DNA from: Caulobacteraceae bacterium
GTDB lineage: Bacteria; Pseudomonadota; Alphaproteobacteria; Caulobacterales; Caulobacteraceae
DNA: 64,000 bases
NCBI GenBank assembly: GCA_947475875.1
Contig: CANJME010000006.1
Coordinates: 1 to 64,000 of the forward strand
Reading direction: 5' to 3'
Positions 39,682 through 46,085 of the stretch are shown in pieces. Each line of letters starts with the position of its first letter. Within the stretch, counting starts at the first letter, position 1. The notes under the pieces were generated by a model. That model saw nothing but the letters and a program-made list of their open reading frames with translations. It did no database searches and was not told the origin of the DNA. The position numbers and the translations under genes were made by a program.

Positions 39682-40668
39682 TCATCCGCCGCGTCCTCCG
39701 CCGCCGCCGCCAAAGCCGCCACCGCCGCCACCAGGGCCGCCGCCACCACCACCGGCTCCGCCACGGCCACCACCAGGCCCGCCGCGTCCACCGCCTGGAC
39801 CTCGACCGGGACCGCCGCCCGGACCACCGCCTGGACCACCGCCCGGCCCCGCGCCTGGACCACCACCTGGACCGCGACCCGGACCACGGCCGTCGGGACC
39901 ACCGCCACGACCGCCGCGTCCGCCGTTGGCGTTGTTGCCATTGTTGTTGTTCGCCGCCGTCGTCACCCGCTGCGACAGCGCCCGTCCCGACGCGGCCAGA
40001 TCGACGATCTGGGCGCGGCCGTCGCTGGAGGCCAGGCGCACGAAGATCTTGCGCATGACCTGGTTGGGATCGACGCCGTATTCGGTCGGCTGGCCGCGAT
40101 AGACTTCCCAGCTGTCGTACCACTGGGTCCCGTCCTCGGAATAGGAAAACACCCCGTCCGGCCAGCGCAGTTTCGCCACCGCCACCGGCTCGATTTCGGA
40201 CCCGTCGTCCAGCGTCAGCCGGCAGAACACCGTGGTCTCCAGGCTGGCGGTGGTTTCCACCGAAAGGGTGATCCGCCCTTCCAGGCCCAGCGGCGCGCAG
40301 ACCGTCTCGCGTCCGGCGACCAGCCGCCCCGACATCTGGTCGGGGGCGCCCACGAAGGAATCGTCGATCAGCTCCAGCTCGGTCTCGGCCGCCTGGGAAG
40401 CGAGGTTGATCGGCGGGACGACGATATCGTGGATCAGATCGTCGAACGTCTGGCGGTCGACCTCCTTGTCGACGGTGGCCAGCGCCCGGTTGCCCAGCCC
40501 GAAGGCCTGAAAAGCCCCGCGCGTGCCGACCCCCAAAACGAGGGCGACGGTGAGGCCGGTGATCAAAAGGGCGATCATCGCCTCGATCAGGGTAAAGCCC
40601 CTCTTCCCCCGGAGGGGAAGGGGGACCGCCCCCGCAGGGGGGGGTGGAGGGGCCGCCGCCGCTCTCAT
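39682..40668 (-). CDS. gspJ: type II secretion pseudopilin GspJ with Gly/Arg-rich tail
   Basis: This 328-residue prepilin has the cut site GKRG-FTLIEAMIALLITG, Glu +5 present. The leader of about 23 residues (MRAAAAPPPPPAG...) is mainly encoded by a palindromic repeat. ATG 40668 overlaps the gspH stop (ATGA); an upstream TTG would add eight residues. Residues about 35-235 are the GspJ domain. The last 95 or so residues are nearly pure Gly/Arg/Pro (GGRGGRGGG, GPGRGPGGGPG), not found in model GspJ. Confidence 0.88.
   Translation of the reverse strand: MRAAAAPPPPPAGAVPLPLRGKRGFTLIEAMIALLITGLTVALVLGVGTRGAFQAFGLGNRALATVDKEVDRQTFDDLIHDIVVPPINLASQAAETELELIDDSFVGAPDQMSGRLVAGRETVCAPLGLEGRITLSVETTASLETTVFCRLTLDDGSEIEPVAVAKLRWPDGVFSYSEDGTQWYDSWEVYRGQPTEYGVDPNQVMRKIFVRLASSDGRAQIVDLAASGRALSQRVTTAANNNNGNNANGGRGGRGGGPDGRGPGRGPGGGPGAGPGGGPGGGPGGGPGRGPGGGRGGPGGGRGGAGGGGGGPGGGGGGFGGGGGGRGG
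40599..40650. repeat. palindromic repeat inside the gspJ leader
   Basis: Two hairpins occur back to back: CTTCCCC-CGGA-GGGGAAG (40603-40620) and CCCCC-GCA-GGGGG (40628-40642). Read in the gspJ frame they encode the PPPPPAGAVPLPLRGKRG leader. This unit is of the same GC-rich type as the one at 24968. Confidence 0.7.
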
Positions 40669-41117
40669 GTGCGCACGCGCACGAAATGACAATCCGGCTG
40701 GCCCTCGAGATGAGCGGCGACCTGGTTATCGCTCAGAATATCGGCCTCGACCGGCGAACAGACCCCGCCCGCCGAGATGACCATCGGCTCGGACAGGCGA
40801 TAGGACCACAGGCACGGCTGTTCGTCGGGCCCGCACAGTTGCACCTCGCCGACCAGCTCGTCGGGATCCTGGCTTTCCTCGCCGGTGCTGAGGAGGTTGA
40901 TGGCCAGGTTCTGGCGATAGGCCTGGGCGCGATAGCCGGTGACCTGGCGCTGGAAGACGATGAAGCGGCCCTGCGCGGCGTTTTCGGCGATCTGGCGTTT
41001 GATGTTGGGCGTGACGATGGCGACGGCGAACGCCATGATCGCCACCACGACCATCATTTCCAGCAGGGTGAAACCGGCTCTGGACCTGATCGCTCTAGAG
41101 GGCGATGTCCTTGGCAT
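40665..41117 (-). CDS. gspH: type II secretion minor pseudopilin GspH
   Basis: This 150-residue prepilin has the leader MPRTSPSRAIRSRAG, then FTLLEMMVVVAIMAFAVAIV. The globular domain has two Cys pairs (QLCGPDEQPCLW). ATG 41117 is chosen: its leader is suitable and GGAAGGCGGG lies upstream; ATG 41141 is also open. The gene overlaps gspG by 23 nt and gspJ by four. Confidence 0.85.
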   Translation of the reverse strand: MPRTSPSRAIRSRAGFTLLEMMVVVAIMAFAVAIVTPNIKRQIAENAAQGRFIVFQRQVTGYRAQAYRQNLAINLLSTGEESQDPDELVGEVQLCGPDEQPCLWSYRLSEPMVISAGGVCSPVEADILSDNQVAAHLEGQPDCHFVRVRT

Positions 41118-41556
41118 TGTTGGTCCCGCCTTCCTGGCCATCGCTGCCCAGGGTCATGACCTGAGGCTCGCCATTACCTTCCGGGGCGATGTACCGGTAG
41201 GGGTGCTTCCAGGGATCGAGCGGCACCTCGGCGGCCTGGGCTTCGTTGCCGAGGTAGGGGCCGCTCCAGCCCGGGGCGGCGTCGCCCGGATCCTTGACCA
41301 GCAGGTCGAGACCCTCTTGCTGGGTGGGATAGCGGCCAATGGCCAGGTCCATGGTGGCGAGGGCGGACTTAAGGCTGCGCATCTGGATCATCGCGGTTGA
41401 GACCTTGGAATTGTCCAGCTGCTTCATCAGCCCGGCGCCCACCAGGGTGACCAGCAGCCCGATGATGGTGATGACGATGAGGATTTCCAGCAGGGTGAAC
41501 CCGGCCTTGGCCCGAAGGCGGCGGGCAAGCCGCTGGGAGAGGGTGATGCTCATCAT
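41095..41556 (-). CDS. gspG: type II secretion major pseudopilin GspG
   Basis: This 153-residue protein has the leader ...RRLRAKAG, then FTLLEILIVITIIGLLVTLVG (Glu +5). The signature LGRYPTQQEGLDLLVKDP-like IGRYPTQQEGL and WSGPYLG are diagnostic of GspG. It polymerises into the pseudopilus. It is the first gene of gspG-H-J-K-L. Two ATGs (41556, 41553) are adjacent. Confidence 0.95.
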   Translation of the reverse strand: MMSITLSQRLARRLRAKAGFTLLEILIVITIIGLLVTLVGAGLMKQLDNSKVSTAMIQMRSLKSALATMDLAIGRYPTQQEGLDLLVKDPGDAAPGWSGPYLGNEAQAAEVPLDPWKHPYRYIAPEGNGEPQVMTLGSDGQEGGTNNAKDIAL

Positions 41557-41871
41557 GACACGCGCTCGATCGGTTTTTGGGGCGGACTGCCCCGGTTCTT
41601 CTACCAACCCGGATTCCCGGTCACAAGCATGGCAAAATGACGGCGCGGCTTAATGCGCTACGGCAACGTTCTGAATTGTCCGGCCAAGCCTTGCCGCGCA
41701 AGGGTTTACGGCCGTAAAAATGCATTACGGCGAGGGATCGCCGAAATCTTACCCCTTACGCCGCCTGATATTGGCGCTATTTTGCGGCGCGTGGCTGAAA
41801 CACCTCCGAAACACGGGTATGAAACAGCCGAGCCAACCAGAAACGTCTAAAAATCGGGAAACAAACCGCTC
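41557..41871. promoter_or_regulatory. divergent promoter region of the two gsp runs
   Basis: The 315-bp gap separates leftward gspG and rightward gspM. It is less GC-rich in 41690-41870. It holds the perfect 14-bp palindrome TTTACGGCCGTAAA (41705-41718) and nearby TTACGGCG (41725-41732) and TTACGCCG (41756-41763). A shared regulator of both runs could bind here; which protein is unknown. Confidence 0.5.
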
Positions 41872-42531
41872 TTGGCCTCGTCCCTTTCGCGTCTGAAAAC
41901 CTCGCTGGACGCACAGGTGGCCAAGCTGAGCGTCAATGAGCGGCGGCTTCTCCTTGTTCTGACCCTGGTCGCCACGGCGGGACTGGCGTATCTCGCTTTC
42001 AGCTTCCAACTCGCCGCCCGGAATGATCATACCGAGGCGCAGAACCGTTTCTCCGAGGCCGAGCAGGCGGCGGGCCGGGCCACGAGCGGCGCCCTGGCCA
42101 GCGATCTCGCCAGGGGCAAGGCCGAGGTGCGCGAATGGACCTGGCAGGGCAGCACGATCGAGGTCGCGCAGGTGCGGGCCCAGAGCCAGATCGCTGAAAT
42201 CGCCGCCAACACCGGCTTGGCCAATGCCGAGATCAAGACCAGCGACAAGTTTGAAACCGCTGGCGATGTGACGCTGGCGCCGTTCGAAATCCAGGCCCCG
42301 TTCAGCTGGCCGGCCCTGGCCGGCTTCATGTCGGGCCTGACCGCCACCGGCAAAGGGTTTGTGGTTGAGCAGGTGCAGCTGACCACCGATCGCGACATGA
42401 AGGTGCGCATCAGCCTGAAGGCGCCGCTGACGGTCATCGCGGCCCCCAAGGCGCAGCCCAAGACTGCGGGCAAGGCGGCGGTGAAGGCCGCGGCGCCGGC
42501 CAGCCCTGCGCTAAAGGGCAAGACCTCATGA
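41872..42531 (+). CDS. gspM: type II secretion protein GspM
   Basis: This 219-residue protein has a short basic N-terminus, one membrane helix (about 24-44, RLLLVLTLVATAGLAYLAFSF), a coiled region and a small periplasmic ferredoxin-like domain (APFEIQAPFSWPALAGFMSGL). GspM partners GspL, encoded on the opposite run. It starts at TTG 41872, as no ATG is available, and ends in an ATGA overlap with the next gene. The Lys/Ala-rich tail is low-complexity. Confidence 0.75.
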   Translation: MASSLSRLKTSLDAQVAKLSVNERRLLLVLTLVATAGLAYLAFSFQLAARNDHTEAQNRFSEAEQAAGRATSGALASDLARGKAEVREWTWQGSTIEVAQVRAQSQIAEIAANTGLANAEIKTSDKFETAGDVTLAPFEIQAPFSWPALAGFMSGLTATGKGFVVEQVQLTTDRDMKVRISLKAPLTVIAAPKAQPKTAGKAAVKAAAPASPALKGKTS

Positions 42532-43496
42532 GTATGAAGGCGCTTGGTCTTGTCGTTCTGGTGGGTGCTCCGGCGGCTCTGGCCGCGGGTTATCTGCAGG
42601 GCGTCAGCACACCGCCGCCGCCGGCCGCCAAGGTGCGCGCCGCCCCGCCGGCGCTGATCGTCAAGCCGGGCTGGGGCGCCAAGGAAGCCGCCGCCTACAT
42701 GGCCAGGCTGAACGCCCCGCCTCCGCCGCCGCCGCCAGTCTATACCGGACCGCCGCCCACCGATGTGGCGGTCTATTTCCGCCGAGAATACGGCGGCGTG
42801 CTCAATCCGACCGGACCGGCGCCCGTGGTGTTCCTGGGGCCGAGGCGCACCCTGAAGATCGGCGATGTCTATCGGGATGGCTGGAAACTCACCAGCATCA
42901 ACGCCTCGACCGCGACGCTGTCCAAGGGGACCGAAACGCGGCGGATCGGCCTGTTCTCGCCGCCCGTTCCGGCGGAAAATGCGCAGAACAACGCGGCCAA
43001 CACGCCGGTCATTCCGCTGTCGCTGTCGAACGGCCTGCGCGAGGGCCAGCTGACCGGCACCCAGCTCAACACTATCGAGAGCGCCGCGAGCCGCCTGGGC
43101 CTGACGCCCGCCCAACGCTTGCAGTTGCGCGCCCAGCTGACCCAGGGGACCGTCAACCAGCAATCGATCATCCAGCTGATCCAGGGCCTCCGCCCGCCGC
43201 CCAGCGCCGCGGCGATCACCGCCTTCGTCAATGCGCTTGGCCAGGCCGGCGTCATCCCGCAGCAAGTCGCCAACCAGCTCAGCCAGACCCTGCCACAGAT
43301 GATCAGCAACCAGGCGCCCGCCAACATCAACCGCGGTCCCGTCAACAATGGCGCGGCCCCGGCGCCGGGCGCCAACCGTGGCGGCGGACCGGGCGGCGGC
43401 AATCGCGGCGGGCCCGGCGCCCTTCAGAATTTCGGCGGACCCGGAGGCGGTCAGAACTTCGGCGGCCCTGGCGGCCGCGGCGAACGCGGCGGTTAG
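42528..43496 (+). CDS. GspC-like protein with Gly/Arg-rich tail
   Basis: This 322-residue protein has an N-terminal hydrophobic segment (about 4-22), Pro-rich linkers, and a small domain (about 75-145) with LKIGDVYRDGWKLTSINASTATLSKGTETRRIGLF. That block looks like the homology region of GspC/PilP that binds the secretin. The middle (160-270) is helical and Gln-rich. The tail (about 275-322) is RGG-like. Its place between gspM and gspD suits the missing gspC. No PDZ domain is seen. Confidence 0.55.
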   Translation: MSMKALGLVVLVGAPAALAAGYLQGVSTPPPPAAKVRAAPPALIVKPGWGAKEAAAYMARLNAPPPPPPPVYTGPPPTDVAVYFRREYGGVLNPTGPAPVVFLGPRRTLKIGDVYRDGWKLTSINASTATLSKGTETRRIGLFSPPVPAENAQNNAANTPVIPLSLSNGLREGQLTGTQLNTIESAASRLGLTPAQRLQLRAQLTQGTVNQQSIIQLIQGLRPPPSAAAITAFVNALGQAGVIPQQVANQLSQTLPQMISNQAPANINRGPVNNGAAPAPGANRGGGPGGGNRGGPGALQNFGGPGGGQNFGGPGGRGERGG

Positions 43497-43532
43497 ACCA
43501 TGGCCCTTCAAATTGAAGAAAGACGCAAAACC

Positions 43533-46085
43533 ATGACTCTCGCGAGGGCACTGATCACTGTCGGGACCGGGCTTGTGGTTTCGGCCGCGCTCTACGGATG
43601 CGCCGCGTTCCCGACCATGCAGGTCGCCGATCCGGGCGCCCAGACGGGCCGGCCTGAAACCGGCTCGAATGGCGCGCTTGAGGGCCCCGGCCTTGCCCCG
43701 CCGCCGGGACGGGGTGGACGTGGCGGCAGAGGCGGTGAAGCCGATTTGCTGCGCGGCGTGCCATCGGTTGCGCAAACCATTCCGGGCGCCGCCGTGAGCC
43801 GCCCGCAGACACCCGAGGCCGCGCCCGATGCGCTGGCCGCCCTGGCGCCGGATGAGCCGATCATGGCCGTGCTGCCGCCCCAGGGCGTGGGCCAGTTCCT
43901 CGACATCGTCTTCTCGCAAGTGCTCAAGATCCCCTACGCGCTGGGCCCCGGCATCTCGACCCGCACCGACGTTATTCAGCTGAACCAGCCGCAAACGACC
44001 TCAAAGAAGGTCTATATCCGGTCCCTGCAGACCACCTTGCGCAACTACGGTCTGCGCATGGCCGTTGACGCGACAGGCCGTGTGCAGATCACCGAACAGG
44101 GCGTGACCTCGGCCGGCGGCTCGGCCAACACCATCATCCGCACCCGCAGCTCGGCCGACATTCCGGCCGGCCCGCAGCGCATCAATGTTGAATTTCAGCT
44201 GGTCGCGCTGCGCGCCGACGGCATTCAGGCGTTCCTCGATCAGACCTTCAGCGGTCAGCAGGTGACATTCACGGCTGATGACGCGGCCAACGCCTTCATC
44301 ATTCAGGGCCCGGCGCGCAACGTCTCCCTGGCGGTGGAGTTCCTGCAGCACCTCGACGTGCCGGCCTTCGCCGGCGCCCAGGTCGTACGCCTGCAGCCGA
44401 TCTTCTATTCGCCCGACAATTTCGCCCAGGCCCTGACCACGGCCATGTCCGCTGAGGGCTATATCATCGGCACCGACCCTCTGGGCCCCAAGTCGATCGT
44501 CGTCGTGCCGCTGGCCACCACCAACCAGACCCTGGTGTTCGCGGCTGACAAGGACACCATGGCGCGTGTTCAGTATTACGCCACCTTCCTCGACCAGCCG
44601 AGCCAGATCGGCGACGCCAGCGGCACCTATGTCTATGACGTGCGCAACACTTCGGCGACCTCGATCGGCTCGATGGTGACCAGCGCCGGGGCCCAGGCCA
44701 ACGCCGCCGCCGGCGGCCGCGGCGGCGGCTTCAACGGTCAGGCGGCCGCTGCGCTCGGTCAGCCGGGCGGTGCGGCGGCCCAGGCCGGCAGGGGCGGCGG
44801 CGCGGCCAACAACAACGCCGGACGCGGCGGGGCGGCGGCAGGCGGCGCCGCTGGCGGACGTGGCGGAGCGGCGGCCAACGGCGGCCGCGGCGGCGCTGCG
44901 GCCAACGGCGGCCGCGGCGGCCAGATAAACGCCGGGGCCGGTAATGGCGCGGTCGGCCGGGGCGTCACCGTAGCCGGGTCGGTTCCAACCGGCGGCACCA
45001 TCACTGTCGACGATTCCTCCAACCGCATTCTCTTCACCGGCAGCCCCAGCCAGTACGCATCGTTGCGGCCGCTGCTGGCCAGCCTCGACCAGCCGCCGCG
45101 CGAAGTGCTGGTCGAAGTCACGGTCGCCGAGGTCACCCTCAGCGACACGACGGAGTATGGGCTTGAGTGGTTCTTCAATCACAACCTGGTCCGGGGCTCG
45201 ACGGTTACCGGTTCGATCAGCGGCGGCACCCAGACAAGGGTTCCCGGCGCGACGACGCGGACGACCACCGGCACTGGCGCGGCCCAGGTGATCACGGAGG
45301 TAACGGCTCCCGACACCTTCCTGAGCAGCCTGGGGTTGGGTTCGCAGGGCCTGAACGCGGTCTATCAGAACGGCGACCTGCGCGCGGCGTTCAACGCCTT
45401 TGCCTCCAACAACAAGATCAACATCCTGTCGCGGCCCAGGGTGACGGCGCGCAGCGGCGCAGCGGCGGCCTTGCAGGTGGGCTCCAGCGTACCGATTGTC
45501 ACGGCGCAACAGACGGCGGACACCGGCAGCGGCACGCCCACGGTGACCAATTCCTACACCTACCGCGACGTCGGTATCATCCTGAACATCACGCCGACGG
45601 TCTACGGCGACAACCGGGTGGACATCCAGGTCTATCAGGATGTCTCGAGCGTGCGCGACAACACCAATCCGGACATCGACTCGCCGTTCATCGACACGCG
45701 GAATGTGACCACCACACTTTCGCTCACCGATGGCCGCACGGCGGTGCTGGGCGGCGCTATCCAGGACAGCTACGGCAAGGGCAATTTCGGCATTCCGTTC
45801 CTCAAGGACATCCCGATCCTGGGCCAGCTGTTCAGGGTGGATACCACCTCGGGCACCAAGACCGAACTGGTGGTGCTGATCACCCCGTTCATCATCCGCG
45901 ATGAGGACGACATGAGCGACCTGACGCGGCAGATCTCCAATGAGTTCAACCAGGCCTTCAAGGTCGGCCGCGGCGGCTCCTACACCTTGACGCCGTTTAC
46001 CGGGAAGAATGTCCTGGCGCCCGGCGCGCCGAGCACCACCATCACCGGCGCCAACCTGCAACGCCCGGCCCCGGCGGCGAAGTAA
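43533..46085 (+). CDS. gspD: type II secretion outer-membrane secretin GspD, lipoprotein-like
   Basis: This protein of about 850 residues has an N-terminal signal ending AALYGC (Cys near 23), which resembles a lipobox. N0-N3 domains follow. Residues about 387-474, within N3, are a Gly/Arg/Ala/Asn-rich insert. The secretin core contains VEVTVAEVTLSDTTEYGLEW, GSSVPIVTAQQ, DVGIILNITPTV and the ending of the beta barrel LVVLITPFIIRD. Start at ATG 43533 because it gives a proper signal; the frame is open from 43500. Confidence 0.93.
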   Translation: MTLARALITVGTGLVVSAALYGCAAFPTMQVADPGAQTGRPETGSNGALEGPGLAPPPGRGGRGGRGGEADLLRGVPSVAQTIPGAAVSRPQTPEAAPDALAALAPDEPIMAVLPPQGVGQFLDIVFSQVLKIPYALGPGISTRTDVIQLNQPQTTSKKVYIRSLQTTLRNYGLRMAVDATGRVQITEQGVTSAGGSANTIIRTRSSADIPAGPQRINVEFQLVALRADGIQAFLDQTFSGQQVTFTADDAANAFIIQGPARNVSLAVEFLQHLDVPAFAGAQVVRLQPIFYSPDNFAQALTTAMSAEGYIIGTDPLGPKSIVVVPLATTNQTLVFAADKDTMARVQYYATFLDQPSQIGDASGTYVYDVRNTSATSIGSMVTSAGAQANAAAGGRGGGFNGQAAAALGQPGGAAAQAGRGGGAANNNAGRGGAAAGGAAGGRGGAAANGGRGGAAANGGRGGQINAGAGNGAVGRGVTVAGSVPTGGTITVDDSSNRILFTGSPSQYASLRPLLASLDQPPREVLVEVTVAEVTLSDTTEYGLEWFFNHNLVRGSTVTGSISGGTQTRVPGATTRTTTGTGAAQVITEVTAPDTFLSSLGLGSQGLNAVYQNGDLRAAFNAFASNNKINILSRPRVTARSGAAAALQVGSSVPIVTAQQTADTGSGTPTVTNSYTYRDVGIILNITPTVYGDNRVDIQVYQDVSSVRDNTNPDIDSPFIDTRNVTTTLSLTDGRTAVLGGAIQDSYGKGNFGIPFLKDIPILGQLFRVDTTSGTKTELVVLITPFIIRDEDDMSDLTRQISNEFNQAFKVGRGGSYTLTPFTGKNVLAPGAPSTTITGANLQRPAPAAK

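Follow-up and report, generated by a model that had tools for sequence, protein, structure and literature searches.

In the window analysed here, a 64,000-nucleotide stretch of Caulobacteraceae DNA (positions 1 to 64,000 of contig CANJME010000006.1, assembly GCA_947475875.1), the pseudopilin encoded at the gspJ position of a type II secretion system (T2SS) operon has a leader of 24 residues, most of which are encoded by a palindromic repeat of 55 bp. The repeat belongs to a dispersed family, which we call family A. Very probably it was inserted into the leader and tolerated there because the leader is cut off, with parallel cases in gspG to gspJ of Brevundimonas and Sphingomonadaceae, and these cases suggest that the discarded leaders of pseudopilins have repeatedly served as a safe harbour for palindromic repeats. 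Genes other than gspJ are affected, and repeat families other than A are involved.

The gspJ-position gene (39682..40668, minus strand) codes for a protein with a Gly-rich C-terminal tail and is named from its position and size only: no GspJ-specific profile of Pfam or NCBIfam matched the protein at an E value of 0.001, and the single NCBIfam match was a weak one to the N terminus of GspH, below the cut-off. The class III N-terminal methylation motif of a type II pseudopilin is present (Pfam N_methyl, E 4.9e-6, 26.3 bits versus a cut-off of 21.2). The class III (prepilin) leader (40597..40668, minus strand) comprises 24 codons and ends at the Gly before a Phe, the predicted cleavage site; it reads MRAAAAPPPPPAGAVPLPLRGKRG and is followed by FTLIEA. 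Two adjacent hairpins make up the repeat (40598..40652, plus strand), the second of which (40620-40652) consists of GGGGGACC, 15 nucleotides (nt) and GGTGGAGGGG. In the frame of the minus-strand gene, the repeat encodes leader residues 6-24, (A)PPPPPAGAVPLPLRGKR(G), and carries no stop codon. An earlier sequence-only reading of the window had described a GC-rich double hairpin that lies within gspJ and encodes most of the leader, and this description held. The repeat is situated between the cleavage motif and a coupled start, the gspJ ATG at 40668 overlapping the TGA of the gspH-like gene (41141-40665) in an ATGA at 40665..40668 on the minus strand. This ATG and a TTG at 40692 are the only in-frame starts 5' of the cleavage site; both lie upstream of the repeat, and there is none between repeat and cleavage site. 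A start downstream of the repeat, which would have spoken against the sequence-only reading, was rejected for the window gspJ on these grounds.

The pattern GGGGGACC-N{3,20}-GGTGGAGGGG has 18 exact matches in the 2.85 Mb genome from which the window derives, compared with 0 for the reversed control, and the repeat thus occurs in the several dispersed copies expected of a REP/BIME-like palindrome (REP, repetitive extragenic palindrome). The sequence-only reading had proposed, as one check, to look for the same repeat in intergenic regions; the 17 further places in the genome speak in its favour. Family A has the layout CCTCCCC..GGGGAGGGGGACC..GGTGGAGGGG, which the other copies keep with other loops; the copy at C45:4594 matches 83% across 52 query bases. 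The first-hairpin pattern alone, with 3 mismatches allowed, proved unspecific (5 matches, 1 in the control). By reading, without gene calls, 3 of the 18 copies lie in clear coding genes. One is in frame in a UvrD-like helicase gene, where it falls into the part matched by UvrD_C (L046, G000:C45:4613-4643), at a site of variable length among relatives: the orthologue in G001 is 15 residues shorter there, and that in G002 has a different sequence. Another lies in frame at the N-terminal end of an open reading frame for a HAD hydrolase (L037, G000:C15:24880-24906), with a GTG just upstream and, by reading, no in-frame start between the repeat and the conserved part. The sequence-only reading had regarded the hairpins as typical of extragenic repeats; dispersal was borne out, but the family is not strictly extragenic, given these two copies. 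The peptide frame of the HAD-hydrolase copy (PPPPPSAVPLPLGG) is almost that of the gspJ copy.

Among 99 genomes of the window's family, 12, including its own, gave a whole-protein match at an E value of 0.001 or better; some of the weaker matches cover only the Gly-rich tail or the peptide encoded by the repeat. Two other genomes of the same genus have short gspJ-like leaders that lack the repeat (MIRRCDRRAG in G002, MRGKQG in G001), as do G003 (MGLARSRAG) and G090 (MKRRRPSTARRRG), so that leader length in these four is 6-13 residues. The leaders of G041 and G094 are longer, about 20-25 residues, and the repeat is likewise missing. The window repeat is therefore in frame within a gene and missing from relatives, as expected of an insertion of the RPE type (see below). 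The other check proposed in the sequence-only reading, a comparison of gspJ starts in related strains, thus also came out in its favour. The leader is not conserved, so the alternative of one leader sequence shared by distant GspJ proteins, named in the sequence-only reading, found no support. A search of a wide collection of genome contigs with the whole gspJ-position protein found no relatives. A weak match led to the T2SS of G065, whose gspG and gspH leaders contain inverted pairs of family A.

We then consider a scan of genome contigs with a pattern combining a repeat arm and the prepilin motif, which is not exhaustive, since the window's own copy does not fit it. The scan gave 22 matches in 21 contigs, 15 of them labelled Sphingomonas, three Brevundimonas, and one each Sphingomonadaceae bacterium, Parasphingopyxis and Bacillus sp. 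2B10. Judged by eye, all 22 are leaders of gspG, gspH, gspI or gspJ type, which demonstrates recurrence and not enrichment, as the prepilin motif was built into the pattern. The frame is open upstream for 41-141 codons, with L060 and L068 ending at the record edge, and in 20 of the 22 the record shows an in-frame start before the first repeat, the records of the same two loci stopping earlier. With the window leader and the gspG leader of G065 added, the set comprises 24 leaders, and the end of the upstream gene is readable in 21 of them. An ATGA or GTGA overlap with the upstream stop is found in 10 of these 21 (L061, L064, L065, L066, L071, L073, L075, L076, L077 and the window), and in five gspI genes of the S. 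paucimobilis type the overlap is a few bases longer. Family A is read in phases 0, 1 and 2 in 11, 5 and 6 of the 22 leaders, respectively. All three phases occur among orthologous Sphingomonas gspI genes, because internal length changes compensate. The sequence of the leader peptide is unconserved and nearly free, and only the overall frame is kept. The Bacillus-labelled record (L076) contains a Sphingomonas-type gspI with a repeat leader and is probably mislabelled or contaminated.

A larger set of leaders came from Brevundimonas, where a GspG search gave a match in 72 of 101 genomes. We fetched 55 of the 56 places with at least 65% identity and used 54 operons, one per genome, dropping L161, a second operon copy in G108. 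Also left out were G103, which is cut by a contig end, the more distant GspG matches, and the gspI row of L163, where a 455-nt gap represents a gspH missed by the motif. Of 206 readable leaders, 130 have their cleavage Gly 5-62 nt behind the upstream stop and 76 have it 68-305 nt behind; we call the latter extended, with a threshold of at least 65 nt that was our own choice. At least one extended leader is present in 40 of the 54 operons, with 30/54 for gspG, 26/52 for gspH, 11/51 for gspI, and 9/49 for gspJ. Extended leaders are in frame with an upstream start in 30/30, 26/26, 10/11, and 9/9 cases, respectively, and an in-frame start between 40 nt before and 30 nt after the upstream stop was found for 75 of the 76. 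The extended gspH leaders have 16 distinct lengths, all in frame with a start near the upstream stop. Taken modulo 3, the distance is 2 in 49/49 gspJ and 1 in 50/52 gspH; L159, the one extended exception among the latter, keeps the frame all the same, with an ATGA overlap. For gspI, the value is 1 in 41, 2 in 9, and 0 in 1 (L126, which contains a run of N).

We distinguished seven palindrome families in these leaders: A (the window repeat), B (CGCTCAAGCAGCG...GCGAGCGGTAGCGC), C (GGCCTTGTGCCGGGGATCC), D, E, F and G, of which D, E and G were defined from Brevundimonas leaders alone; the seeds of E also match A. Seeds chosen from these same leaders, some taken directly from them, are present in 69 of the 76 extended leaders and in 2 of 129 unextended ones, a count that preceded the inclusion of one more unextended leader. 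Those of B, C, D, F and G form 84 clusters in 13.9 kb of leader DNA at the 54 loci, as against 0 in the 90 kb that code for mature protein. In 114 kb downstream there is 1, of family B, which probably belongs to the L116 gspJ leader cut by a run of N, and none was found in the surroundings of gspK downstream of gspJ (L109-L163, with gspK not located per locus). Short A seeds occur at 7 places outside leaders, where the full signature is missing from the surrounding sequence. Elsewhere in the genomes, family F gave 28 matches in G108 (8 within its two T2SS copies) and 15, 9, 3 and 2 in four others, although pieces may be split, and dispersed copies of families A and B occur in samples of 400 kb each from G065 and G175. 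Family B contains TAG, which is out of the gene frame in 46/46 matched leader copies; across four genes, the 35 forward copies all have one phase and the 11 reverse copies all have one other. Such uniformity could stem from common ancestry, from selection acting on the peptide, or from copying from leader to leader. One family-B copy, at G175:C1:386248, adjoins a stretch that resembles an RNase P RNA gene.

In a class-wide sample of Alphaproteobacteria, 52 of 289 genomes gave a match, and we read 29 loci outside the window's family. Inserts between consecutive pseudopilins were absent from the 50 readable distances, gaps of about 400-490 nt being genes missed by the motif, and gspG lies at least 65 nt behind the upstream gene in 6 loci. 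In two other alphaproteobacterial families, the gspG leaders of L206 (1427-1500) and L227 (1885-2048, minus strand) consist of strong hairpins (z −4.05 and −2.79), with an ATGA or GTGA overlap in front of them; another long gspG leader, L209, folds no better than shuffled sequences (z −0.58). No family seed occurs in any of these three leaders, and it is possible that L206 and L227 are further independent cases with other palindromes. Repeat-bearing leaders are common in Brevundimonas and recurrent in Sphingomonadaceae, and they are probably present in further groups as well.

These observations can be accommodated in a simple scheme. The prepilin peptidase of the T2SS removes the leader by cleavage behind the Gly. 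In the lineage of the window, a family-A member would have entered the gspJ leader as a unit, as opposed to having been lost from the relatives. Such a repeat would bring no stop and leave the frame to the downstream gene as it was; the lengthened leader would be removed after the Gly, and the mature pseudopilin would be unchanged. Because the genes overlap, a palindrome at the gene junction must be translated as leader, and only stop-free, frame-keeping inserts would survive. The gspG, gspH, gspI and gspJ genes of Brevundimonas and Sphingomonadaceae would have been hit likewise, in Brevundimonas by several palindrome families. This agrees with the sequence-only reading, which had proposed that the insertion is tolerable since the leader is removed, a removal that the motif predicts. 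We infer that the leader is indeed cleaved, that the secretion system works, and that tolerance, rather than a benefit, explains the retention of the repeat.

Several observations weigh against this scheme. Cleavage is predicted from the motif, and expression is presumed. A Y1 (RAYT-type) transposase (PF01797), which might have moved the repeat, was not found in the window genome, although 5 of 14 control genomes contain one, and on this basis a classical RAYT-mobilised REP was rejected. Tolerance alone does not explain why families B, C, D, F and G are missing at gspK, which also encodes a prepilin. The extended leaders share ancestry, so that their counts are not independent events; 7 of the 76 are seedless, and the provenance of the seeds, given above, counts here as well. 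Dispersal elsewhere was seen for A, B and F, and for C by one further cluster, but not for D, E and G. With short seeds, family-A clusters fall inside genes in 5/13 (G175) and 13/25 (G065) cases, compared with 0/12 and 2/12 for a fuller signature, all according to a home-made gene caller. The gspI leader of L126, with its run of N, has no in-frame start, and the frame counts of gspG are mixed (20/5/5) because its start lies freely after gspF. Finally, an ATG, GTG or TTG stands directly before the Gly in 12 of the 76 extended leaders and at 4-15 codons in 9, which leaves just 55 without an in-frame start in the last 15 codons.

These last starts bear on the idea that the long leaders are artefacts and that the repeats lie between genes, with translation beginning after the repeat. 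The 12 starts directly before the Gly (3 gspG and 9 gspH, with family A or B) would favour this idea, as would the sequence GGGGGAGG, which resembles a ribosome-binding site and precedes some of them. However, such a start would yield a leader of Met-Gly only, most extended leaders have no late start, their lengths maintain the frame with a start that lies in the upstream gene or overlaps it, and the window gspJ offers no start beyond the repeat, all of which renders the idea very improbable. We give still less credence, in fact next to none, to a chance G+C-rich palindrome in a proline-rich leader that belongs to no repeat family. The fold energy would allow it: the plus strand has a z of −1.29, with 24/200 shuffles as good, which is unremarkable for such G+C-rich DNA, and the mRNA strand a z of −1.68, with 12/200 as good. 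It is the membership in a dispersed family, and not the folding energy, that argues against chance, and the count of 18 copies versus 0, along with the absence from the relatives read, led us to reject it. A known structured RNA was rejected as well, since the Rfam search yielded no more than a sub-threshold match at an E value of 0.84.

A function of the hairpins is a more serious contender, in our view possible but rather unlikely. Placed behind a coupled start, they might slow or gate re-initiation, thereby setting the ratio of the pseudopilins, or they might protect the operon mRNA between cistrons. The occurrence of several palindrome families at the same spot is consistent with this, as are the hairpin-rich gspG leaders of L206 and L227. 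The Sphingomonas gspI leaders retain hairpins despite changed sequence and phase, with 6/53 predicted pairs changed on both sides; such changes may, however, represent replacement of a whole element, and the covariation term of RNAalifold is unfavourable (+3.28). In genomes picked for their repeat leaders, T2SS leaders hold 3/12 family-A clusters (400 kb of G065) and 3/4 family-B clusters (400 kb of G175), but the opposite pairing gives 0/7 for family B in G065 and 0/12 for family A in G175. Moreover, 130 of the 206 Brevundimonas leaders do without an extension, and hairpin kinds and numbers differ at the same place. An extension of this idea, in which leaders are a recurrent and convergent landing site where stop-free palindromes of various kinds were domesticated as coding hairpins that tune pseudopilin stoichiometry, a lineage-variable regulator from selfish DNA, strikes us as doubtful. 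It is also rather unlikely that leaders exchanged repeats by local duplication or gene conversion within an operon in place of many separate insertions. The uniform phases of family B would fit such an exchange, tandem copies occur, and family F recurs across several leaders of one operon in G108 and G117, but the palindromes belong to several families and the bacteria to at least two taxonomic families, and copies of A, B and F are present elsewhere in the genomes. Insertion into a leader that is probably discarded is the explanation we favour.

The gene next upstream of gspJ in the window operon is the gspH-like pseudopilin gene (40665..41141, minus strand), whose match to the GspH model is below its cut-off, and gspG, the major pseudopilin gene (41095..41607, minus strand), matches TIGR01710 with an E value of 8.5e-36. 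Several proteins of the window T2SS cluster, including that at the gspJ position, have Gly/Arg-rich low-complexity tails or linkers (GGRGG-like; 39682-39990, 42528-43496 and 43500-46085). The window genome contains a second T2SS pseudopilin cluster (L234, G000:C7, about 13.5-19.5 kb), in which four prepilin motifs were read, with short leaders free of repeats.

The pseudopilin leader would thus be a spot in coding DNA where a repeat can be inserted at little cost, since the peptide encoded there is thrown away and may have almost any sequence. Beyond the residues at the cut, a prepilin leader appears to be under little constraint, and the many natural replicates offer a means to measure palindrome insertion, frame selection and loss. 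In practical terms, the starts of pseudopilin genes in these genera may be misassigned by gene callers, as they were by our simple home-made one.

Among the open-access literature matches listed, none reported a recurrent leader target for palindromes in its title or abstract opening, and Brevundimonas, Sphingomonas and Caulobacter are all absent from the main text of the RepRanger paper (PMC12306157). The leader palindromes share with REP, BIME and REPIN elements that they are short and interspersed, here often as inverted pairs; they differ in lying in coding leaders and, for the window, in a genome without a Y1 transposase. The enterobacterial repeats RU-1/2/3 are intergenic with open frames and also occur within genes, according to their description (PMC2759123), but there various genes are concerned, whereas here one gene class is hit repeatedly. 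The closest likeness is to the palindromic elements of Rickettsia (RPEs), of about 150 bp and in ten families, with 44 integrations in R. conorii genes, as stated in a review (PMC10969869): in both cases palindromic repeats of several families lie in frame within genes. RPEs are found in many unrelated genes, in contrast to the recurrent target here, the type II pseudopilin leader, which is expected to be cleaved, and the leader palindromes are G+C-rich and of smaller size, 55 bp in the window. By this analogy, the leader palindromes are probably best read as a variant of the protein-coding palindromes of Rickettsia with a recurrent, cleavable target.
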